A DNA stretch of 64,000 bases, from contig NZ_JAMHFY010000005.1 in NCBI RefSeq assembly GCF_023897015.1, positions 186,001 through 250,000 of the forward strand, read 5' to 3'. Of the stretch, positions 7,521-61,429 are shown piece after piece. The position numbers were made by a program, and so were the translations under genes. The DNA is from Desulfosporosinus nitroreducens. Its GTDB lineage: Bacteria > Bacillota > Desulfitobacteriia > Desulfitobacteriales > Desulfitobacteriaceae. The first letter of the stretch is position 1, and every line of letters starts with the position of its first letter. Below the pieces are notes generated by a model that saw only the letters and a program-made list of their open reading frames with translations, did not search any database and was not told the origin of the DNA.

Positions 7521-7618
7521 GCATGAATGAAATGAGATTGCTAAGCGAACCATTCAAGCCAACCCCTAAGAATCACTTCTCGAAGCTTTGGTGAGCGTGC
7601 AATTCATTTCATTCATGC
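7521..7618. repeat. 98-bp inverted-repeat element (MITE/REP-like)
   Basis: GCATGAATGAAATGA at 7521-7535 is repeated in inverted form at 7604-7618. The element sits between flhB and flhA and has no coding capacity. It could be a small non-autonomous element or a processed stem-loop in the operon mRNA. Confidence 0.5.
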
Positions 7619-8713: not shown

Positions 8714-9489
8714 TGCTTCCACCCCTGGTAAAGTTCTAAGACCCAAGACATATTGGTGTCAAATAATTTGGCTACAGACTCCCCGAAAAAGGGTAGCGAG
8801 AGAAACAAAATAACGAATCCGAAAACAATCTTAACTGGGAAAATAACTGAAAAGATATTCAGTTGAGGTACTGTCCTCGTTAAGAGCCCTACCCCTACAT
8901 CTGATACTAGAAGCGCTCCAAAGATTGGCATTGCCAATTGCACCGCTAAAGCAAATACATGGCCGATAAGTTCGGCGTAAAAGAGATAATTAGCGGGCAG
9001 ATTCGATGGGTTAATAGGAATATAAGCATAGCTCTTAACCATAGCAGCAATAAGATAATGATGAGAATTAGTTGCGAGCATAAGCATCGTAGCTAATATA
9101 ATCTGAAAATTACCCATCATAGGACTTTGAACTCCATAGACAGGATCAATCGCAGCCCCCATGGTAAAACCCATTTGGAAATCAATCAGTTGTCCTGCCC
9201 CTTGTAAAATAGCCGTCAGTGAGTAGATTAAAAAACCAATGACCAGCCCCACCATTATTTCCTTGACCACCACCGCAACATAAGGTAACAGCTCAAGTGG
9301 TATTGGGGGATTAGTTGCCTGTATCAAGGGATAGAGAATGACTGTAATACTTGCAGCTAATCCCAGTCTTACCATACTTGGAACTCCTCTGGCAGCGAAG
9401 ACTGGAGCTAACATGATCATACCGGCCCAACGGCATAAAATCAGTATGAATAAAGAGAGATTCCATTGGAGCAGCTGAGCTAGACTCAA
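8710..9489 (-). CDS. fliR: flagellar export gate protein FliR
   Basis: A 259-residue, highly hydrophobic protein with about six membrane helices, typical of FliR in the FliPQR core of the flagellar secretion gate. The start is a TTG at 9489 behind GGGAGGGAG. It overlaps flhB by 4 nt. The family hallmark QMGFTMGAAIDPVYG is present near the middle. Confidence 0.95.
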   Translation of the reverse strand: MSLAQLLQWNLSLFILILCRWAGMIMLAPVFAARGVPSMVRLGLAASITVILYPLIQATNPPIPLELLPYVAVVVKEIMVGLVIGFLIYSLTAILQGAGQLIDFQMGFTMGAAIDPVYGVQSPMMGNFQIILATMLMLATNSHHYLIAAMVKSYAYIPINPSNLPANYLFYAELIGHVFALAVQLAMPIFGALLVSDVGVGLLTRTVPQLNIFSVIFPVKIVFGFVILFLSLPFFGESVAKLFDTNMSWVLELYQGWKQ

Positions 9490-9506
9490 TTTTCTCCCTC
9501 CCTAAC

Positions 9507-9545
9507 TCGATGTTCGATGTTTGATGTTCGTGGTTCGAATTCTGC
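9507..9545. repeat. TTCG-rich degenerate intergenic repeat
   Basis: Units such as TTCGATGTTTGATGTTCG repeat in the 158-bp gap between fliR and fliQ. The wording matches the repeats at 1002 and 22390. Confidence 0.5.
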
Positions 9546-9647
9546 AGTTTCATATTTGGGTGTCCGAGGTTTAGGATTCATAGTTCATCGTCAGAAGTCC
9601 CAAGTAAAGTAATTCAATGCTCGAATTTTTAAACTCAAATATCGAGT

Positions 9648-9920
9648 TTACATCCCTCCGAAGGTTGCCAACTGAGTTAACAAATTCGAAGTATATACGG
9701 TTAGAACTGAGAGCATCCACGGGCCTAACAAGAGCATAACAACAACCACTGCAAGTACTTTAGGAATAAAAGTAAGCGTCTGCTCCTGGATTTGGGTCAT
9801 AGACTGAAAGATACTCACCAGAAGACCAACTAACAAAGCGACGCCAAGAATGGGTCCTCCCACGAGAAGCACGGCGCCCACGGCTTCCCTGGCCATATAT
9901 AGCACCTGATTTTCGGTCAT
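9648..9920 (-). CDS. fliQ: flagellar export gate protein FliQ
   Basis: A 90-residue protein with two long membrane helices and the conserved loop FQSMTQIQEQTLTFIPK, diagnostic of FliQ. It forms the secretion channel core with FliP and FliR. GGGGGAGACAGGACG precedes the ATG. A 19-bp gap separates it from fliP. Confidence 0.96.
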   Translation of the reverse strand: MTENQVLYMAREAVGAVLLVGGPILGVALLVGLLVSIFQSMTQIQEQTLTFIPKVLAVVVVMLLLGPWMLSVLTVYTSNLLTQLATFGGM

Positions 9921-9939
9921 CGTCCTGTCTCCCCCATTT

Positions 9940-10707
9940 CTATTGGAAACTCGTCACCAATGATTCAACCACCAAATGCCACCCATCGACTAACACAAAC
10001 AACAGCAATTTAAACGGCAGAGAAATCATCATCGGGGGAAGCATCATCATCCCGATTGACATAAGAGTACTCGAAACAATCATATCGATAACAATAAAAG
10101 GAATAAATATTGCGAATCCCATTTGAAAAGCCGTTTTTAATTCACTAATCACAAAGGCTGGAATTAGTACATAGGTGGGTACGTCTCTATAGGTTTTAGG
10201 TTGCTCCATCTTAGACAACCCTACAAAAAGTTCTAGATCTTTTTCCCGAGTCTGACGAAACATAAAGATTCGGAGAGGTTCTTCCGCTCTATCAATGGCC
10301 TCTGTCTGAGTAATCTGATTCTGCATATAGGGCTGTATAGCATTGGTATTAATCTCGTTCCAGGTTGGGGCCATAATAAAGAACGTAAGAAAAAGGGATA
10401 TACCTACGAGCACTTGATTCGGGGGCAGTTGCTGAGTCCCCAGTGCATTTCTCACAAAGGACAGCACGATAATGATCCGAGTAAAGGAGGTCATCATCAT
10501 CAGAATGGCCGGTGCTAATGACAGCACCGTTAAAAGCATTAAAATTTGCAATGAAGTACCGGTTTGTTCCGTGGCTGAGGCTCCCAGATCTAAGGTGATT
10601 CCCGCTGCCCAAGCAATTTTAGGGCTTGACAACATTCCTGCCCCCAGAGCCAAGCCAAAAGACAATCCTGATGTGAAGAGTTTAATTAAACGCCCTGAAG
10701 AAGACAT
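9940..10707 (-). CDS. fliP: flagellar export gate protein FliP
   Basis: A 255-residue protein with an N-terminal hydrophobic signal sequence (about residues 10-34), as expected for FliP, followed by membrane helices. It carries conserved segments [20 protein letters not shown] and [16 protein letters not shown]. It is the central channel subunit of the FliPQR gate. Its ATG overlaps the fliO stop codon (TAATG). Confidence 0.97.
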
Positions 10708-11180
10708 TATTTTTCAACCTCCTCAAGCAAACGTTGCAATTCATCAGAAAAGGGCTCTTTCTGCCTTAACGGCCTCCGCCATAGCTTTTGGACACTTTGC
10801 ATCCATCCTTCTACTCGTTCCGTTGGACGCGTAGCGATCTCTTCCAGTATTTCTGAGGCAACCTGCGGATCATTAATTTCACTGATTTTCACCAAGTGGT
10901 GATCAGATCCGCCGAGGACCTGCAATTGACCAGCTATTTCTACAAGATAAAGGCTTTGCTGTCCACCTAAAATTTGTCGATCGATAACTCTTGCCCAGGG
11001 CGCATTCATACTCCTCATATTTACCTTATTAAGGCGTCGAAGTGTCCAAAGGGACACAAGCAAAATAATGAGGAAAACCAATAACGTTCCCAGAAGCCCC
11101 CACCATGAGAATACAGACTGTGAAACCTCTGGAGCAGTTACACTTGAAGTATACGGCTGGCCTTGGTCAAATGACGACAT
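10707..11180 (-). CDS. fliO: FliO/FliZ-type export gate assembly protein
   Basis: 157 residues with one membrane helix at about 23-47 and a small cytoplasmic domain ([24 protein letters not shown]), the pattern of FliO/FliZ. FliO helps assemble the FliP ring. The sequence is variable in this family, so the call rests on topology, the domain motif and the position directly before fliP. Confidence 0.9.
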
Positions 11181-11181
11181 T

Positions 11182-11544
11182 TTATTTCAACGCCTTCATG
11201 ACAGCCTCAACCACGCGTTCCGCTTGGAAGGGCTTGACAACGAAGTCTTTGGCACCGGACTGAATCGCTTCAATAACCATGGATTGTTGGCCCATGGCAC
11301 TGCACATGATAATCCGAGCCTTTGCATCTATTTTGCGTATTTCTTTAACCGCCTGAAGCCCGTCCATTTCTGGCATAGTAATATCCATAATTGTCAGGTT
11401 TGGTTGCAAATCCTTATATTTCTCCACGGCCATGGCCCCATTTTCTGCTTCACCAACCACGTCAAACCCATTTTTAATCAATATGTCCTTTAACATCATG
11501 CGCATAAAGGCTGCATCATCAACAATCATTATTGTATCACTCAC
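11182..11544 (-). CDS. cheY: chemotaxis response regulator CheY
   Basis: A single receiver domain of 120 residues. Acidic pocket Asp9/Asp10, phospho-acceptor Asp54 (TIMDITMPEMDG), switch Ser82 and Lys104 are all present. It starts with GTG behind AAAGGAGG. Placed between fliY and fliO, it is phosphorylated by CheA and dephosphorylated by FliY and CheC, and acts on the FliM/FliY switch. Confidence 0.96.
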   Translation of the reverse strand: MSDTIMIVDDAAFMRMMLKDILIKNGFDVVGEAENGAMAVEKYKDLQPNLTIMDITMPEMDGLQAVKEIRKIDAKARIIMCSAMGQQSMVIEAIQSGAKDFVVKPFQAERVVEAVMKALK

Positions 11545-11557
11545 TACATTTCCTCCT

Positions 11558-12763
11558 TTATCTCAATGAATTCATTCGGTCCATTGGATGTATTATATCA
11601 GTAATTCGAATTCCAAACGTCTCATTAACGACAACAACTTCGCATTTTGCAATTAATTTTCCATTGACTATCATATCTACTGATTCTCCAGCCAAACGAT
11701 CCAGTTCAACGACCGAGCCAGGTCCCATATCCAGGATTTCCTTAATTGTCTTTTTGGCACGACCAAGTTCCACGCTTATCTGTAAGGGAACATCGAGAAT
11801 TAAGCTGAGGTTATCCGGAGGTATCATCTGCGGACCAGGTTGCAACGGTGCAAATTGTGCTGGTTGAACAGGTGTCTGCATTCTTCCTTGTGAACCGGAC
11901 TGTGCCGTCCCATATTGAGTGTAGTCGGCGGGAGCCGAATAAGTCGACGCTTCATATGCCGGCGGCGGGGATGACTGTGGAGCCTGATAAGTTGGGGGGG
12001 CAGGCGGCGCTGGTTGAGCAGGGGCAGCCGGCTGTGAAGTCGGCTTTGCAGAAGCACCATTCATAGCGATCAATAATTTATCGACCATCCCTTTGGCTAC
12101 ACTTAGTGGGAGTATTTGAACAAGAGTACTATCGATAACATCTTCCACAACCATTCGAAAAGAGATCCTTACAAGGGGATCATCCTGAGGCAAGAAGTCA
12201 TGAATAACATCTTTACCGTCTGCCATATCATTGAGAACTAAATTTGGAGGGGTTATATCAACCATTGCATTAAACATGGTCGACATTGAAGTGGCCGCTG
12301 ACCCCATCATTTGGTTCATCGCCTCAGAAATCCCACTAATTTGAAGCTCTGAGAGCCCTGGTGCCGGGTTTTTTCCATCCCCCCCCATCATCAGATCTAC
12401 AATCACTGAACCATCCCTTTGGGAAAGAATCAAGAGGTTAGAGCCTTCAATTCCGACCTTATACTTAACATCACAAATCACGGAAGGGATAGGATAATCC
12501 TCGCGAATCTGTTCCGAAGTCGTTAAGTCGACTTTCGGTGTGGTGATATCCACTTTTTTGCCTAAGAGCTGAGATAATGTCGTAGCTGCGGTACCCATCG
12601 AAATATTGGCAATTTCTCCAAGCGTATCTCGTTCCATCTCATTAAGAAGATCATTTGATGACGGCAACTCGGAACTGGATTCAGCCGGAGTCTCTAAGTC
12701 TGAGTCCGATGTTCCCCGGAGCAAAGCGTCAATCTCTTCTTGAGAAAGCATCCCACTACTCAT
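11558..12763 (-). CDS. fliY: flagellar switch protein FliY (FliN with CheC-like phosphatase domain)
   Basis: The N-terminal part (about residues 40-235) is CheC-like with two phosphatase motifs (LGEIANISMG and ISEAMNQMMG). A proline/alanine/glutamine/tyrosine-rich linker spans about 240-310, and the C-terminal SpoA/FliN domain begins at about 315 (LDVPLQISVELGRAKKTIKE). FliY builds the C-ring and dephosphorylates CheY-P at the motor. It overlaps fliM by 8 nt. At 401 residues it is slightly longer than the Bacillus protein because of the linker. Confidence 0.96.
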   Translation of the reverse strand: MSSGMLSQEEIDALLRGTSDSDLETPAESSSELPSSNDLLNEMERDTLGEIANISMGTAATTLSQLLGKKVDITTPKVDLTTSEQIREDYPIPSVICDVKYKVGIEGSNLLILSQRDGSVIVDLMMGGDGKNPAPGLSELQISGISEAMNQMMGSAATSMSTMFNAMVDITPPNLVLNDMADGKDVIHDFLPQDDPLVRISFRMVVEDVIDSTLVQILPLSVAKGMVDKLLIAMNGASAKPTSQPAAPAQPAPPAPPTYQAPQSSPPPAYEASTYSAPADYTQYGTAQSGSQGRMQTPVQPAQFAPLQPGPQMIPPDNLSLILDVPLQISVELGRAKKTIKEILDMGPGSVVELDRLAGESVDMIVNGKLIAKCEVVVVNETFGIRITDIIHPMDRMNSLR

Positions 12764-55614: not shown

Positions 55615-56454
55615 TTAAAGCCAGGGCGAGCGATTAACAGAGCTTACTCGAATCTCAATTCCCTGAAGGGATTTTTCTGACGACAAATAGTCATATATTG
55701 ATCTAAGCATGGGTGCCTCACTCAAGAAATGCCCCAGATCTCCAACAGCCATTCCTCCTTCAAGGGCATCAAGGACGGCATGATGATCAACGTCACCTGT
55801 AATGAGCAGGTCAGCGCCCTTAAACAACGCCTTGGGTACGAATCGTCCCCCACTGCCATTAACGATAGCTACTTTCCTTACTTCCCTCTCTAAGGATCCA
55901 GCCAAGCGAACTCCGGTTAGTTCATAGGCCTGGGAATAGACTCCTGACTCTTTCAATTTATCCAAAAAGTTCTGCCATAAAACTCCTAACTTTTGGGGAC
56001 GTGTTAGATATCCGCTTACTCCATACCCGCGTTCCTCACTATTACGGCTTGGATTAACATCATACACCCGCTCCAAAGGCTCCATCTTTTCCAACCCAAT
56101 TAATTCGCCAAGGACTCGACTCGGAGAAACTACAGACTGATCTAAATTCGTGTGCGCAGCATAATATCCGATCTCATGTTGTAAAAGACGGAGAGGGACT
56201 TGAGCCGCAGCGTTATCTGCCCTTAGATTTTTCAGGGGCCGAAAAATAACGGGGTGATGTGCCACGATGAGCTGGGCATTAAAAGCTTTTGCTTCTTCGA
56301 CCACTTCCAAAGTCCCGTCTAAGGTAATAAGGATGCGTTCGATAGTTTTTGAACCGCTTCCGACAAGTAATCCGACATTGTCCCACTCCTCAGCCCAGGA
56401 TTTTGGAGCTATCTTTTCTATTAACTGAGCAACTAATCCAACTGTTACCGCCAT
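55615..56454 (-). CDS. NIF3-like dinuclear metal-centre hydrolase family protein
   Basis: 279 residues with the NIF3/DUF34 motifs: WDNVGLLVGS, VAHHPVIFRPLK, YAAHTNLDQ, and ITGDVDHHAVLDAL near the C-terminus. It is the short version without the inserted CutA-like domain. Recent work links the family to GTP cyclohydrolase-type or metal-related roles, but function is unsettled. It overlaps trmK by 10 nt. Confidence 0.9.
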   Translation of the reverse strand: MAVTVGLVAQLIEKIAPKSWAEEWDNVGLLVGSGSKTIERILITLDGTLEVVEEAKAFNAQLIVAHHPVIFRPLKNLRADNAAAQVPLRLLQHEIGYYAAHTNLDQSVVSPSRVLGELIGLEKMEPLERVYDVNPSRNSEERGYGVSGYLTRPQKLGVLWQNFLDKLKESGVYSQAYELTGVRLAGSLEREVRKVAIVNGSGGRFVPKALFKGADLLITGDVDHHAVLDALEGGMAVGDLGHFLSEAPMLRSIYDYLSSEKSLQGIEIRVSSVNRSPWL

Positions 56455-57248
56455 TGACGCAATCCCTCCACTAAAGCCAGTGTAAGTGAAACTTCACGAA
56501 TTTTTTCCACAATCTCCGGGCTTTTTGATTTTTCCATCTGCTTCAACTGCCTCGACAATCTGCCTCTGTACTCCTCAAACAGCTTGTTCAAGAGATTCGT
56601 GTGCTCTCCCAAGACCAGAGGCCCAAAATGCCATACAAGCCTGTGTACTAAGCTTTTAAACTCCGCCTCCGGCATCTGTTCATCTCTCTCAACTATAACT
56701 GGATGCAAACGATCACACCATACATGTTCGATCTCGATCAGTTCCGTCATTTTCCATCCTGCTTCCGTAGAAAAAGCCATCACGACATAGATTCGATCCT
56801 CTTCTTCCACCAACAACTCTGCCTTCAGACGCCACCCTTTATCCAGCAACGTCAAACGAACAGCGCCTTCCGCTCCCTGCGGTTGCACGATGAGATCGGT
56901 AACACCCGTCAAAATGTCCGGCCGCGCCGAAAAAATCTCCAACATAGTTCTTCCGCCCATCCCCGCAAGGGTCAAAACATTGACTTCTCCGACCTCGAGG
57001 GGCATCAATCCATCGCCAAACCTCACATCAATGACGTTTTCTAATTTCCGGGCTTTGACCGCTGCCAAGGCGGATTGATACGGTCCTTCATGGACATCTA
57101 TAGCTACTGCCTTTGCTATTTTCTGATCCTCATAGAGAGAAATTGGCAAATAAGCATGATCCGTCCCTATATCCCCGAGATTTGCTCCCTCTGGAACAAA
57201 CGATGCCACGGTTTGAAGCCGTGGACCTAAACTAACTGACACTGTCAT
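56445..57248 (-). CDS. trmK: tRNA (adenine(22)-N1)-methyltransferase
   Basis: 267 residues. SAM-binding motif LGDIGTDHAYLPISLYED, then AIDVHEGPYQSALAAV and LTLAGMGGRTMLEIF, followed by a C-terminal coiled region (LFEEYRGRLSRQLKQMEK). It methylates A22 of tRNA. The rpoD-trmK-nif3 neighbourhood is common in Firmicutes. Confidence 0.92.
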   Translation of the reverse strand: MTVSVSLGPRLQTVASFVPEGANLGDIGTDHAYLPISLYEDQKIAKAVAIDVHEGPYQSALAAVKARKLENVIDVRFGDGLMPLEVGEVNVLTLAGMGGRTMLEIFSARPDILTGVTDLIVQPQGAEGAVRLTLLDKGWRLKAELLVEEEDRIYVVMAFSTEAGWKMTELIEIEHVWCDRLHPVIVERDEQMPEAEFKSLVHRLVWHFGPLVLGEHTNLLNKLFEEYRGRLSRQLKQMEKSKSPEIVEKIREVSLTLALVEGLRQWR

Positions 57249-57342
57249 TTTTTCACCTCATATAGAAAACTTGGCTACGCCAGTCCTTGTGAAAACTATC
57301 ATGTATATTATTATGCCCAAAAAGCAAGCTCATGTTTCCACA

Positions 57343-59037
57343 TTATATCATTCTATCGGATAAAGTGCTTGTGGACAATGAAAAAAGGCGGGTCGAGACC
57401 GAACGTTGAGCATCCGAGTCAACTAAGATCTCAATCAGGTAAGGACGATAGGCACTAAACGCACGTGTTAAGGCATCAGTGATCTGCTCAGGTTTTTCTA
57501 CCAATTCTGCCTCTACACCCATTCCTTTAGCTGCAGTTGCAAACTCCAGCTCCTTTCTAAAAACAACGATCACTACCGGAATATCATGTTTAACGGCTGT
57601 TGCAAGCCCCTCAAGAGACATACCTAAACTTGCATCCCCTAATAAATTCACGACTTGGCGTTGCGGATAAGCCAACTGAGCACCCATTGCCGCACCTAGA
57701 CTCCACCCCATGGCACCAGCGCGATCAATTAAAAACGTACGCGGTTCATGTGCATCGTATAATTGAGAGGCCCAAATTCGGCCTAATCCCCAGTCCAAAG
57801 TCACAATCGCATCTGGCCGAATCCCTTTTCTGACCTCTGTAATCATCTGCTGCGATTTGAGGGGACTACTCTCAGATTCCGCTTGACGAGCTAAGTTAGT
57901 TTTTTCTATCCGAAGAGATTCAATTCTTTTTAAAGCCTCTGTATTAGGTTTATACTCGCGACTGCGGATAAGATTGTGTAACTTTAGGATGAAATTCTTT
58001 ACATCTGAAGCAATAACCAATTCATCGGGAATATGGTGAGAGAACAAGATCTCTTCTTCAGTGATATTAATGTGAATTATCTTACTGCCCTCTTTAAAAA
58101 AATTTCTTCCTCCCGTGCTTCGACTGTCAAACCACTCACCTAGATTTACGATAAGATCTGATTCATAAATGGTTTTATTTCCAAGCTGAGTTTGGCACAC
58201 TGGTCCTGCGATCCCCGCATAGAGGTGGTGATAATTAGGAAAACCATCTTTCCCCATAAGAGAGGAAACTATGGGGATCTGAAGTAATTGAGCCAGGCCT
58301 ATAAGTTCGTCGCTTACATTCCCCGCAACTCTTCCTCCGACTAGAAGAACAGGCCTTTCTGCTTTCTCAATCATGGTGAACACTTCTTCCAGTTGACTGT
58401 CGCTCACTTTTACTAGGTCAATATGTTCTCCCTTTTCTTCTTTCAAATAATCTTCGAGGTTAATCTTGAGTAACCCCTTTTGTACATTGACAGGAATATC
58501 TATTAAGACCGGTCCCTTCCTACCCTGGGTCGCTAATCTCCAGGCCTCACTCATCACCTTGGGTAAGTCCTCCGTCTTAGTGACTAGATAGATAGCCTTA
58601 GTAATTACACGAGCCATTTCTACTATCGGTGCCTCTTGAAAAGCATCTTTTCCTATTAGGTTTGTGGTTACTTGACCCGTAAAGACGATTAATGGAATAG
58701 AATCTCCGTGTGCACTATTAAGACCTGTCAGGAAATTAGTTGTTCCTCCGCCAGATGTGAGCGCGCAAATCCCTACTTTTCCCGTCGACCTAGCATAGCC
58801 TTCCGCCATAAATATTGCGGTTTGCCCCTGATGAACATTAATTGCTCGCATGTGTTCTTGTTCCAGTACTGCATCGTAAAAGGGAAGAATAGCCGCTCCA
58901 GGAATGCCAAAGACATGGGCTACTTCCTTTTTCTCTAAAAACTTTACGACGAACTGAGCCCCTGTCATTTCGGCCTCTTTTTCCAACTCGTCTGCAAAAT
59001 AGTGTTTTACTTTTTCTTCTATTCCCCAAAGCGCCAT
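57343..59037 (-). CDS. thiamine-diphosphate enzyme of the acetolactate synthase/glyoxylate carboligase type, atypical active site
   Basis: 564 residues from the ATG at 59037 (AAAGGGGGAG upstream). Three domains of the ThDP family can be followed: PYR domain (FVVKFLEKKEVAHVFGIPGA, FMAEGYARSTGKVGI), central domain (RPVLLVGGRVAGNVSDELIG) and PP domain (GAMGWSLGAAMGAQ, NLLGDASLGMSLEGLATAV). By eye, the position of the catalytic Glu (H-E-Q-G in acetolactate synthase) reads Q-G-Q-T. The Mg-binding asparagine region after GD is F-R-K in place of L-N-N. Glyoxylate carboligase also lacks the Glu (it has Val). The substrate is unknown. It is a single-gene unit with palindromic sequences upstream. Confidence 0.82.
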   Translation of the reverse strand: MALWGIEEKVKHYFADELEKEAEMTGAQFVVKFLEKKEVAHVFGIPGAAILPFYDAVLEQEHMRAINVHQGQTAIFMAEGYARSTGKVGICALTSGGGTTNFLTGLNSAHGDSIPLIVFTGQVTTNLIGKDAFQEAPIVEMARVITKAIYLVTKTEDLPKVMSEAWRLATQGRKGPVLIDIPVNVQKGLLKINLEDYLKEEKGEHIDLVKVSDSQLEEVFTMIEKAERPVLLVGGRVAGNVSDELIGLAQLLQIPIVSSLMGKDGFPNYHHLYAGIAGPVCQTQLGNKTIYESDLIVNLGEWFDSRSTGGRNFFKEGSKIIHINITEEEILFSHHIPDELVIASDVKNFILKLHNLIRSREYKPNTEALKRIESLRIEKTNLARQAESESSPLKSQQMITEVRKGIRPDAIVTLDWGLGRIWASQLYDAHEPRTFLIDRAGAMGWSLGAAMGAQLAYPQRQVVNLLGDASLGMSLEGLATAVKHDIPVVIVVFRKELEFATAAKGMGVEAELVEKPEQITDALTRAFSAYRPYLIEILVDSDAQRSVSTRLFSLSTSTLSDRMI

Positions 59038-59101
59038 ATCTGTCTCCCCCTTTAAAAATTTTTTAATCCGATCGAAGCTTTTATGATAATACCTTGTAAA
59101 C

Positions 59102-59273
59102 AACATTGTTTTAATTAATAAAACAATGTTTTACATAATGGTCAAACCCTTCTTTCGCCTTGATTACTATATGTCTTTAAATTATTCCCAAATTATACTT
59201 TTACGTATCGCTCTAGCTCAGTCTTCCAAACAATAAGTACGGTTCTGTTTCATATAACAAAACCATGTTTCAT
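59102..59273 (-). promoter_or_regulatory. operator-like repeats upstream of the ThDP enzyme gene
   Basis: AACATTGTTTTA and TAAAACAATGTT form a perfect 12-bp-arm dyad at 59102-59130. A related copy ACAAAACCATGTTTCAT lies at 59257-59273 beside a second GTTTCATAT. Repeated AAAAC-N-ATGTTT wording suggests binding sites of a regulator not encoded here. The remainder of the gap 59038-59367 shows nothing else. Confidence 0.5.
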
Positions 59274-59367
59274 ATTGATATTAAAAAGAAACGGCACCTA
59301 TGCCCTAACTTTTCTTTATGCCAATATTCTATCATATTCCCCCTCTTGCGGGCAATACTTCGTCTTC

Positions 59368-59661
59368 TTATTCTACATAAAATTGGACTTTGACATCATT
59401 CTTAGCTTCGATGACTAAACAAACATCCTCTTCTCTTGGATCGTAATTCACAGCAATAACATCGTCTAAATTAATCCAAAACACCTCATTCTCATTGCTC
59501 CATACTGAGACCTTATCATCAGCTACGTCAATATTTCCTACAACTCCAAAATCCATAGTACACTCAATGACAGAAATGATCTCAATACACTTCAGGTTCT
59601 TGCCAAACAACTTCTCCCTGAGAAATTTTACGAATTCAATCTTCGAGGATAAGGTTATCAT
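59368..59661 (-). CDS. hypothetical protein
   Basis: 97 residues with GGAGG 7 nt before the ATG. Starts MITLSSKIEFVKFLREKLFG; the centre reads VSVWSNENEVFWINLDDVIA, an acidic beta-rich pattern. It lies between the ThDP gene and the tRNA cluster on the same strand. I do not recognise the family. Confidence 0.65.
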   Translation of the reverse strand: MITLSSKIEFVKFLREKLFGKNLKCIEIISVIECTMDFGVVGNIDVADDKVSVWSNENEVFWINLDDVIAVNYDPREEDVCLVIEAKNDVKVQFYVE

Positions 59662-59765: not shown

Positions 59766-59840
59766 TGGTGGGCGATACTGGTCTCGAACCAGTGGCCTCA
59801 TCCGTGTGAAGGATGCGCTCTACCGCTGAGCTAATCGCCC
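59766..59840 (-). tRNA. tRNA-Val (anticodon CAC)
   Basis: Acceptor stem GGGCGAT/ATCGCCC with encoded CCA. Anticodon stem CATCC/GGATG holds loop TTCACAC, giving CAC. D-arm GCTCAGCGGTAGAGC and T-loop GGTTCGAGACC are normal. Confidence 0.92.
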
Positions 59841-59953
59841 CAGTATTAATGCGCGATGTCCGTAATCGAATGCTCAAGGCAGGTAAATAATTTGTCTTTA
59901 ACCATTAATTAGGAATACCCACCGTTTCTAGCCTCTGACTTCTGGCTCTGAAA

Positions 59954-60028
59954 TGGTGGGCCCACTAGGATTCGAACCTAGGACCAACCCGTTATGAGCG
60001 GGGGGCTCTACCGCTGAGCTATGGGCCC
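59954..60028 (-). tRNA. tRNA with CAT anticodon, probably tRNA-Ile2 (lysidine type)
   Basis: Acceptor GGGCCCA/TGGGCCC with encoded CCA. Anticodon loop CTCATAA gives CAT. The loop and flanking bases resemble Bacillus tRNA-Ile(CAT) (GGCTCATAACC) more than elongator Met (TTCATAC), so modification of C34 by TilS is expected. tRNA-Met cannot be excluded by eye. Confidence 0.85.
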
Positions 60029-60047
60029 TAATAACAGCGAAGAAAAA

Positions 60048-60122
60048 TGGCTCCCCGAGTAGGACTCGAACCTACAACCTACCGGTTAACAGCCGGTTGC
60101 TCCACCATTGAGCTATCGAGGA
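60048..60122 (-). tRNA. tRNA-Asn (anticodon GTT)
   Basis: Acceptor TCCTCGA/TCGGGGA with discriminator G and CCA. Anticodon stem ACCGG/CCGGT with loop CTGTTAA gives GTT. First of the three tRNAs after the promoter at 60140-60168. Confidence 0.93.
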
Positions 60123-60238: not shown

Positions 60239-61429
60239 TTACTCCAAATAATCCTTTAACTTTTTGCTCCGACTGGGATGCCGTAATTTTCGCAAGGCCT
60301 TGGCCTCAATTTGACGAATTCGTTCGCGTGTAACTCCGAATTCCTGCCCAACTTCCTCTAGAGTCCTTGTCCGCCCGTCATCAAGTCCAAAGCGCAGTCT
60401 AAGCACTTTTTCTTCCCGTGGGGTTAAGGTCTCTAGAACTTCTTCCAATTGCTCTTTTAAAAGAATGAACGAAGCAGCTTCTGCTGGTGCCGGAGCATCT
60501 TCATCCGGAATAAAATCTCCCAAATGAGAGTCTTCCTCTTCTCCAATAGGTGTCTCTAAGGAAACCGGTTCTTGGGCAATCTTCATAATTTCGCGTACCC
60601 GTTCGACGGGAATATCCATAACCTTAGCGATTTCTTCGGGAGCTGGCTCCCTCCCCAATTCCTGCAAGAGTTGCCTTGAAACTCGAATTAACTTATTTAT
60701 TGTTTCAACCATATGCACAGGAATTCGGATTGTCCTGGCCTGGTCAGCAATAGCGCGCGTAATCGCTTGGCGAATCCACCAAGTGGCATACGTACTAAAC
60801 TTAAAGCCTTTAACATAGTCAAATTTCTCTACAGCCTTAATTAACCCAAGATTGCCTTCCTGAATCAAATCTAAGAAAAGCATGCCCCGTCCGACATAGC
60901 GTTTAGCGATACTCACTACAAGTCGCAAGTTAGCCTCTGCTAATCGGCGCTTAGCTTCCTCGTCACCATCTTCCATACGTTTTGCTAATTCTATTTCTTC
61001 ATCGGCAGAGAGCAGGGGAACTCGTCCGATTTCCTTTAGATACATGCGAACCGGATCGTCAATTCCTACACCCTCGGGTACAGAAAGATCCACTTCCGCC
61101 TCTTCTTCAGCATCATCTTCCGGGTCCTCGACGATATCATCGTCTTCATCAACTTTAACGCTATTTAAGATCTCAAGTTCAACTTCTCCAGGTTCTGGCA
61201 CCACATCTATTCCCATTCGTCCAAGTTGTTGATAGATATCATCTATTTGATCCGCGGAAAGTTCAATCCCTTGGAGAGAATCCATAATCTCTCTATAAGT
61301 TAGAGATCCCTTCTTTTTTCCTTTTTGAATGAGGGCTTGGACGTTATCCATCTTCTGCTTTTCATTCATCTGTCCCCCACCTTCCCTCGGATCATTCTTT
61401 TGGGTGCCTATAACCTTACTATTCGCCAC
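60239..61429 (-). CDS. rpoD: primary sigma factor RpoD/SigA
   Basis: 396 residues from a GTG at 61429 overlapping dnaG by 11 nt (AGGAGAG upstream); an ATG at 61369 is an alternative start (376 residues). Region 1.1, an acidic stretch with many Asp/Glu (about 85-115), region 1.2 [16 protein letters not shown], region 2 ([37 protein letters not shown]) and region 4 ([20 protein letters not shown], ending [16 protein letters not shown]) are all typical of the housekeeping factor. Confidence 0.96.

Follow-up and report, generated by a model that had tools for sequence, protein, structure and literature searches.

A short ThDP-fold protein of Desulfosporosinus nitroreducens as a probable eroding pseudoenzyme left from a glyoxylate-carboligase-like operon

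The gene and its product

The window, i.e., the whole stretch of 64,000 nucleotides of D. nitroreducens DNA analysed here, belongs to a genome of 5.46 Mb in 95 contigs. The gene of interest and its immediate surroundings comprise the following features.

57343-59037, minus strand: gene of a short ThDP-fold protein, apparently once glyoxylate-carboligase-like (564 aa; Pfam, alignment, AF2)
59044-59050, minus strand: Shine-Dalgarno sequence GGGGGAG ahead of the ATG at 59037 (sequence)
56445-57248, minus strand: trmK-like gene, the downstream neighbour conserved in 10 of 10 carriers (gene context)
60239-61429, minus strand: sigA (rpoD), found upstream in 8 of the 10 carriers (gene context)

The encompassing open reading frame spans 57343-59106 on the minus strand (587 aa), and translation is taken to start at the ATG at 59037 on the grounds of the Shine-Dalgarno sequence and of conservation, which gives 564 aa; the gene limits in the original prediction, 57343-59037, were right, that ATG being preceded by GGGGGAG at 59050-59044. 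The protein scores above the cut-off of all three Pfam models, TPP_enzyme_N, M, and C, and the PYR-TH3-PP fold of a working ThDP enzyme is present according to Pfam, AF2, and Foldseek. In NCBIfam it falls below the cut-off in each of the best 25 of 54 families, mostly of the AHAS type and Gcl. For TIGR00118 (AHAS large subunit) it reaches 419.5 against a cut-off of 538.35, which the full-length protein of D. lacus narrowly passes (548.0), and for TIGR01504 (Gcl; cut-off 711.2) both stay below, with 286.6 for the window protein and 416.5 for that of D. lacus. Four further ThDP-enzyme matches with open frames are found in the window genome, paralogues at 33-35% identity.

The AF2 model of the window protein, built on 15 sequences, has a pLDDT of 72.1 and a pTM of 0.75, and that of the D. 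lacus protein, built on 13, a pLDDT of 73.2 and a pTM of 0.78; both models are silent on ThDP binding. A Foldseek search of the PDB with the window model matches Gcl at E 3e-30 and AHAS at E 1e-32. The pLDDT drops below 50 in segment 496-530 of the D. lacus model, a stretch that takes in most of the loop missing from the window protein (see below); such a value would be compatible with a mobile lid over the cofactor.

Between sigA and the ThDP gene lie the tRNA-Val, tRNA-Met, and tRNA-Asn genes (59766-60122, minus strand), the same three as in the congeneric genome G035. A 97-aa open reading frame (59371-59661, minus strand) is situated between tRNA-Val and the ThDP gene; its position is conserved in several relatives, and it has no Pfam match.

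Distribution and gene neighbourhood

At E<=1e-100, members were found in 15 of 45 genomes of the family, comprising 10 of 29 Desulfosporosinus genomes and five others, four in genus g3 and one in g7. Seven of the 29 carry a short form beside trmK and three (D. lacus, G034, and G029) a full-length gene at the same place, while the other 19, several of them incomplete, have no member at this threshold. In all ten Desulfosporosinus carriers trmK and nif3 lie directly downstream. In G035 an extra sequence of about 4.5 kb keeps the ThDP gene apart from sigA, and in G019 and G027 sigA is not reached within the fetched stretch. On the sigA side of the ThDP gene there is an integrase-bearing element in G019 and, in G027, a cluster of reductase and permease genes of arsenic-related appearance; the interval from the ThDP gene to the tRNAs on the sigA side thus seems to accept inserts in these three genomes (coordinates L031 9593-13693, L032 10412-15953, and L027 about 9000-12600). 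The trmK-like gene of G012 is split in two matches at 7552/7555 (L065, L066), by a frameshift or an assembly error.

Active-site changes and the deleted loop

The window protein was aligned with 14 relatives, which gives 15 family members in all. Three positions of the window are of importance here.

58825-58827, minus strand: Gly71 (codon GGG) at the catalytic-Glu position (alignment)
57634-57636, minus strand: Asp468 of the GD motif, a retained metal ligand position (alignment)
57553-57561, minus strand: F-R-K, the seam of a 34-residue in-frame deletion, NN and the next loop being gone (codon alignment)

The replacement of H-E-Q-G by Q-G-Q-T, noted by eye in the original prediction, is borne out: H70 has become Q and E71 has become G, so that RHEQ of the full-length relatives reads HQGQ, and the position held in working ThDP enzymes by Glu (or by Val in Gcl) is occupied by Gly71. 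The second claim, that L-N-N after the GD motif had been exchanged for F-R-K, stands as regards the absence of Asn and falls as regards substitution, since F-R-K is the join of a deletion. Residues N494-H527 in D. lacus numbering (NNSLFG...IQGH, 34 aa), which follow V-V-F493, are missing with a junction at 57559/57558 of the window, and with them both Asn and the following loop. Of the GD...NN motif and its loop the Asp is kept, the GD motif being intact (D468), and NN and 32 more residues are deleted. The loss of both sites is thereby upheld, as the alignment places Gly at the Glu position and a gap at the metal Asn.

The 34-aa gap occurs in four of the 15 aligned members (the window, SRJS8, G035, and G027), and a 28-aa gap in three others, G014, G011, and G019 (hereafter the trio), with NHD at the seam (NYD in G019). 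The remaining eight have the full loop, together with RHEQ, GPGATN, GTMGWG, GDAS, and NNSLFGLIRQQ. All seven short forms belong to the genus of the window, Desulfosporosinus, and in all seven the loop with the second metal ligand is absent; the trio retains an edge N, not the metal Asn. Only the window has exchanged the Glu for Gly. In the six remaining short members Glu persists, within HQE in SRJS8, RQE in G035, RNE in G027, and an intact RHE in the trio, which also keeps the whole RHEQ and GPGATN. Asp468 is kept in six of the seven (GD has become GN in G035), and other cofactor motifs are altered as well: the trio has G467E, Met443 is replaced by Pro or Lys in the trio, G035, and G027, and TGQVPT is deleted in G027. 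An assembly or frameshift artefact was rejected as an explanation of the short forms, as they come from seven genomes and their gaps are clean at codon boundaries; the recurrence of the 34- and 28-aa gaps across genomes means that they are due neither to chance nor to assembly error.

Outside the loop, active-site columns were compared with other invariant columns of the alignment. Changed are 9 of 42 motif columns against 43 of 223 others in the window (p 0.83) and 8 of 42 against 44 of 223 in the trio (p 1); for SRJS8 and G035 p is 0.066 each and for G027 0.0028. A faster decay of the active-site columns was therefore discarded for the window and the trio, and holds only for G027.

Traces of a lost operon

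Intact hyi (hydroxypyruvate isomerase) and glxR (tartronate-semialdehyde reductase) follow the full-length ThDP gene in D. lacus and G034, with trmK after them. The D. lacus glxR product passes TIGR01505 (427.0 against 340.75) and that of hyi lies slightly under the TIGR03234 cut-off (350.8 against 353.45), which the orthologue at L037 passes with 386.7. In the four g3 genomes the ThDP gene has hyi and glxR to one side and genes for a permease and an allantoinase to the other, hyi being 54-59% and glxR 77-80% identical to those of D. lacus; the cluster of E. coli K-12 has the order allR-gcl-hyi-glxR-allW-allB. An operon with hyi and glxR is thus found in D. lacus, G034, and the four g3 genomes, and is lacking in the window genome, where hyi gives no match at E<=0.001 and a glxR search yields only paralogues 38-41% identical. 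In G029 a full-length ThDP gene is accompanied by glxR and by hyi in two fragments in different frames (L028 7312-7505). This broken hyi could be a step of operon decay, or possibly an assembly fault.

Among the congeners devoid of the gene, 17 regions, of which 10 reach sigA, contain no match to the ThDP protein at E<=0.01 (G026 and G032, also gene-less, gave no trmK match and lie outside this set). One gene-less genome, G023, bears an N-terminal hyi scrap of 32-33 residues beside trmK (L069 1503-1601).

The 3' end of the window gene carries the mark of the deletion.

57343-57392, minus strand: C-terminal tail, encoded by DNA whose D. lacus counterpart is the glxR-trmK interval (alignment)

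The deletion junction is at about 57392, and the native last residues, hyi, and glxR are all gone in the window. The frame runs past this point into post-glxR DNA, and hence the native C-terminus was lost along with hyi and glxR; the tail RLFSLSTSTLSDRMI is, as the alignment indicates, former intergenic DNA. That the tail could be hyi read out of frame was considered and rejected, as it aligns with the glxR-trmK interval of D. lacus. The window copy also appears, by eye, to have lost half of its terminator hairpin. In SRJS8 the junction differs from that of the window, and the start of hyi is kept. The synteny with loci of the gcl-hyi-glxR type indicates that the short form is a remnant of a glyoxylate-carboligase-like operon.

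The Glu-bearing parent family

The parent family, short forms counted, was found in 21 of 82 genomes of the class (E<=1e-125) and in 6 of 398 sampled genomes of the phylum (E<=1e-135), two of these six being outside the class. Identity to the D. lacus protein is 58% or more within the family and falls to about 40% for AHAS-type proteins. In a 26-row tree, from which the window row was left out and which carries a long-branch warning for several rows including outgroups, the 12 full-length members form a clade of their own (100/99), which excludes AHAS as well as the four Val-type Gcl, so that the family does not belong to the AHAS clade.

Glu and NN are present in 12 of 12 full-length parents, and Val and NN in 4 of 4 Gcl controls. 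The Val characteristic of Gcl at the Glu position is thus found neither in the window protein, which has Gly, nor in its parents. The original prediction had cited the Val of Gcl as a precedent for the lost Glu; the parallel does not apply, as the four Gcl controls keep NN and the full-length relatives have Glu, and a Gcl-like Val/Glu logic was for the latter reason rejected.

From gene context we infer that the Glu clade consists of glyoxylate carboligases by function, enzymes that join two glyoxylates into tartronate semialdehyde. A passage of PMC3534367 describes Val at the catalytic Glu position as characteristic of the entire Gcl family; contrary to this statement, the parent clade keeps Glu in operons of the glyoxylate-carboligase type, and it bears on whether glyoxylate carboligation really requires the loss of Glu. 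PMC8092247 describes a Syntrophobotulus-related bacterium in which dichloroacetate, degraded via glyoxylate, strongly induces a Gcl together with Hyi and GlxR. Representatives of the Glu-bearing Gcl-like clade in Bacillota are located at L026 8400-10181, L033 7492-9267, L037 6917-8689, and L036 8728-10500, with further relatives, and several members sit in hyi/glxR/allantoinase contexts.

A divergent tract

The gene lies within a block whose similarity to D. lacus drops sharply.

57290-59500, no strand assigned: tract about 76-90% identical to D. lacus, flanks 94-100% (250-base bins)

The synonymous distance between the window and D. lacus is 0.47 in the gene against 0.06-0.09 in four neighbours. 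Such a divergent tract between near-identical flanks suggests that the short and full alleles are older than the species split. Old alleles have probably been exchanged at the locus between Desulfosporosinus species, to judge from these distances, and the tree shapes must be read with allele exchange in mind. Between the window and SRJS8, which both carry the short form, identity is 88-92% over the gene and 93-100% in most outside bins, and this dip fits either faster change or a second exchange. A single clade of short forms is not present in the best trees, yet is not rejected by the AU test (p 0.154 for protein, 0.135 for DNA). In the tree of neighbour genes D. lacus and SRJS8 come together within the group of the window (91/92, unstarred).

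Selection on the short forms

Pairwise dN/dS amounts to 0.13-0.15 within the trio (nif3 0.13-0.18 and trmK 0.15-0.19 in the same genomes), to 0.34 between the window and SRJS8, exceeding all neighbours (0.02-0.22), and to 0.09 between D. lacus and G029, both full-length. Codon maximum likelihood, with our own codon-model script, ten taxa, and one tree shape assumed, gave an omega of 0.095 for the full-length genes, 0.204 for the short stems, 0.146 for the trio, 0.228 for G035/G027, and 0.347 for window plus SRJS8. Omega = 1 is rejected for window plus SRJS8 (2dlnL 36.8), the trio (107.6), G035/G027 (172.6), and the short stems (151.8), and also for the tips when D. lacus serves as the third row (window 0.413, 2dlnL 8.3; SRJS8 0.412, 2dlnL 10.5). 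The trio values, 0.135-0.146, are near those of its neighbours nif3 (0.176) and trmK (0.218).

By domain (PYR/TH3/PP; point estimates without intervals, within bounds set by the analyst), omega is 0.062/0.259/0.103 in the trio, 0.070/0.125/0.080 in three full-length enzymes, and 0.327/0.273/0.745 in window plus SRJS8, whose PP domain is near neutral. Constraint on the PYR and PP domains of the trio is about equal to that on the full-length enzymes. In neutral simulations 5.9 new stops are expected for window plus SRJS8, 4.7 for the trio, 10.9 for G035, and 12.5 for G027, the probability of zero stops (2000 draws each) being 0.0025, 0.011, 0.0000, and 0.0000, respectively; none is observed in the seven short frames, and the single TAG of the trio sits upstream of the start codon. 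Its omegas and the absence of stops show the trio to behave like a maintained protein, while the window/SRJS8 pair behaves like a protein with its PP half nearly free. The combination expected of a pseudoenzyme, lost catalytic residues together with purifying selection, is thus found, most weakly in the window lineage.

Putative operators

Upstream of the gene two copies of a putative operator were located.

59247-59272, minus strand: putative IclR-type operator, a perfect match to TGAAACNNNGTTTYNNNATNNGAAAC (pattern scan)
59108-59133, minus strand: second, degenerate copy with 3 mismatches (pattern scan)

At up to 3 mismatches the window contains 2 matches against 0.20 expected, and at up to 2 mismatches the genome contains 6 against 1 for the reversed control. 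One of the six is at the ThDP gene, three precede an acetate-CoA ligase gene (L128 5119-7431, contig 1), one lies between an IclR-family gene and glycolate-oxidase-like genes, and one precedes CoA-ligase, CitE/malyl-CoA-lyase-like, and malic-enzyme genes (L127), these function names coming mostly from matches below model cut-offs. The operator-adjacent IclR-family gene is 75% identical to an IclR gene near the L036 relative, and a protein of this family may be what binds the putative operators. The perfect operator shared with genes of the glycolate/malyl-CoA type makes the window gene look still wired into a glycolate/glyoxylate regulon; this looks to be so for the window gene, not for every short gene. 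With a looser pattern, applied to 240 bases before the start and counted without a chance control, such a repeat turns up ahead of 7 of the 8 full-length genes and 4 of the 7 short ones, those of G035, G011, and G019 being without it. A promoter scan did no better than shuffles (6 against 5.1).

The probable glycolate/glyoxylate regulon of the window genome is located at L127 1151-12475 (contig 4) and L128 4451-7431 (contig 1). The idea of a malyl-CoA route replacing Gcl was weakened: a malyl-CoA-lyase-like gene is present in all seven short genomes, yet also in genomes with a full-length gene, namely in D. lacus and G029 (though not G034) within the genus and in all five relatives beyond it.

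Interpretation

It seems rather probable that the window gene encodes an eroding pseudoenzyme, a remnant of a gcl-hyi-glxR-type operon kept for a non-catalytic role. The full-length parent would have been a ThDP enzyme with the ordinary Glu and NN, presumably a glyoxylate carboligase that probably joined two glyoxylate molecules. In seven Desulfosporosinus genomes hyi and glxR have disappeared from the locus and the metal/diphosphate loop has been removed in frame, the window copy being devoid of the catalytic Glu as well. The short protein would fold, could almost certainly not hold ThDP-Mg, to judge from the residues it lacks, and would yield no product; it may be retained for a non-catalytic role, in the window genome under a putative IclR-type regulator of glycolate/glyoxylate genes. 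The likeliest such role would be subunit pairing via the PYR/TH3 surfaces with itself or with another ThDP enzyme, and an alternative one that of a ligand-binding partner in glyoxylate metabolism, any particular partner or ligand being a guess. In the window/SRJS8 lineage constraint would be fading, most in the PP domain. The best reading, in short, is a catalytically dead descendant of a Glu-type Gcl that some species at least maintain and that is eroding in the species of the window. A fuller version can be put forward tentatively, as possible though short of probable: a Glu-type Gcl made a true pseudoenzyme by at least one in-frame loop removal, co-regulated via IclR with glycolate-oxidase-like and malyl-CoA-route-like genes, and acting as a non-catalytic regulator or partner in glyoxylate metabolism. 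If the 34- and 28-aa gaps were separate events, loss of the loop would have been repeatedly favoured by selection.

The locus is plainly eroding, and a functionless gene in decay, its frame open by chance or after recent loss in each lineage, has to be weighed. The deletion of hyi and glxR, the hyi scrap in G023 and the broken hyi in G029, the failure to find the gene in 19 of 29 genomes of the genus at E<=1e-100, a tail running into intergenic DNA, the PP-domain omega of 0.745 in window plus SRJS8, and the operator pattern missing before three of seven short genes are all in keeping with it, and free trees leave the short rows apart, so that losses may be several and more recent. Against it, omega = 1 is rejected for every short class, tips included, no stop has appeared in seven frames where neutrality predicts several, and omega in the trio (0.135-0.146) is close to that of nif3 (0.176) and trmK (0.218); with seven open frames and dN/dS of 0.15-0.35, below 1 in every short class, the gene is not plain debris, and we regard decay without function as rather unlikely. 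Of the two outcomes that the original prediction had offered, new chemistry or a non-catalytic regulator, the non-catalytic one is better supported and new chemistry lacks support, the relatives being conventional and the loop deleted.

An active protein with a chemistry that needs neither Glu nor the Asn and its loop agrees with the kept fold, with Asp468 in six of seven short forms, and with purifying selection on a trio that keeps RHEQ and GPGATN, but the second-metal-ligand loop is absent from all seven, neighbouring cofactor motifs are scattered in G035, G027, and the trio, and the pathway partners are gone from the locus. It was rejected as first choice, the full-length relatives being conventional and the second metal ligand deleted, not exchanged, and is held to be very improbable. 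Scarcely less improbable is a half-site subunit whose PYR domain complements a PP domain supplied by another ThDP enzyme, in mixed dimers with one working site. Active sites of the ThDP superfamily are formed where the PYR domain of one subunit meets the PP domain of a second, six of seven short forms have Glu, the PYR omega of the trio is 0.062 with RHEQ kept, and the window genome has four other ThDP-enzyme matches with open frames; however, Glu is lost in the window, the paralogues are just 33-35% identical, and the PP domain of the trio is constrained too. The pseudoenzyme reading is compared below with systems already described.

Relation to known systems

AllR, encoded in the E. coli allR-gcl-hyi-glxR-allW-allB cluster, is an IclR-family protein. 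The full-length parents resemble Gcl (TIGR01504) of this cluster in their hyi/glxR partners, in the allantoinase and permease neighbours in g3, in IclR-type genes or operators nearby, and in the fold. Canonical Gcl differs in having Val and keeping the NN loop (4 of 4), whereas the parents, with their Glu, branch separately (100/99). The AHAS large subunit (TIGR00118), the best-scoring named model among the matches listed, has Glu and NN as the parents do; it differs in its separate clade, and the loci read here have a glyoxylate-use or trmK context with no small-subunit gene noted.

Literature searches for pseudoenzyme with thiamin diphosphate or acetolactate synthase gave nothing related by title, one for glyoxylate carboligase with Desulfitobacterium found nothing, and among the matches listed for Desulfosporosinus, glyoxylate, and allantoin none concerned Desulfosporosinus. 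The closest published idea found to a loop-less ThDP protein is human TKTL1, which is without 38 active-site residues and, like the short form, has one consecutive active-site deletion in a ThDP-fold protein. An engineered transketolase delta-38 is reported in PMC3485151 to be folded, to bind no ThDP specifically, and to be inactive; the activity of TKTL1 is disputed, and homology models in PMC6334435 argue for an active TKTL1. TKTL1 differs from the window protein in its ThDP subfamily and in the position of the deletion. Yeast Thi3, related to decarboxylases, is a ThDP-enzyme relative used in regulation, as is proposed for the short form. PMC4299793 names it the "thiamine sensor Thi3p". While thiamine is what Thi3 senses, the cofactor loop is gone from the window protein. 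As full-length and loop-less alleles occupy one chromosomal place in sister species of Desulfosporosinus, the conversion of an enzyme into a non-enzyme can be traced residue by residue, and these alleles of one ThDP enzyme make it testable.
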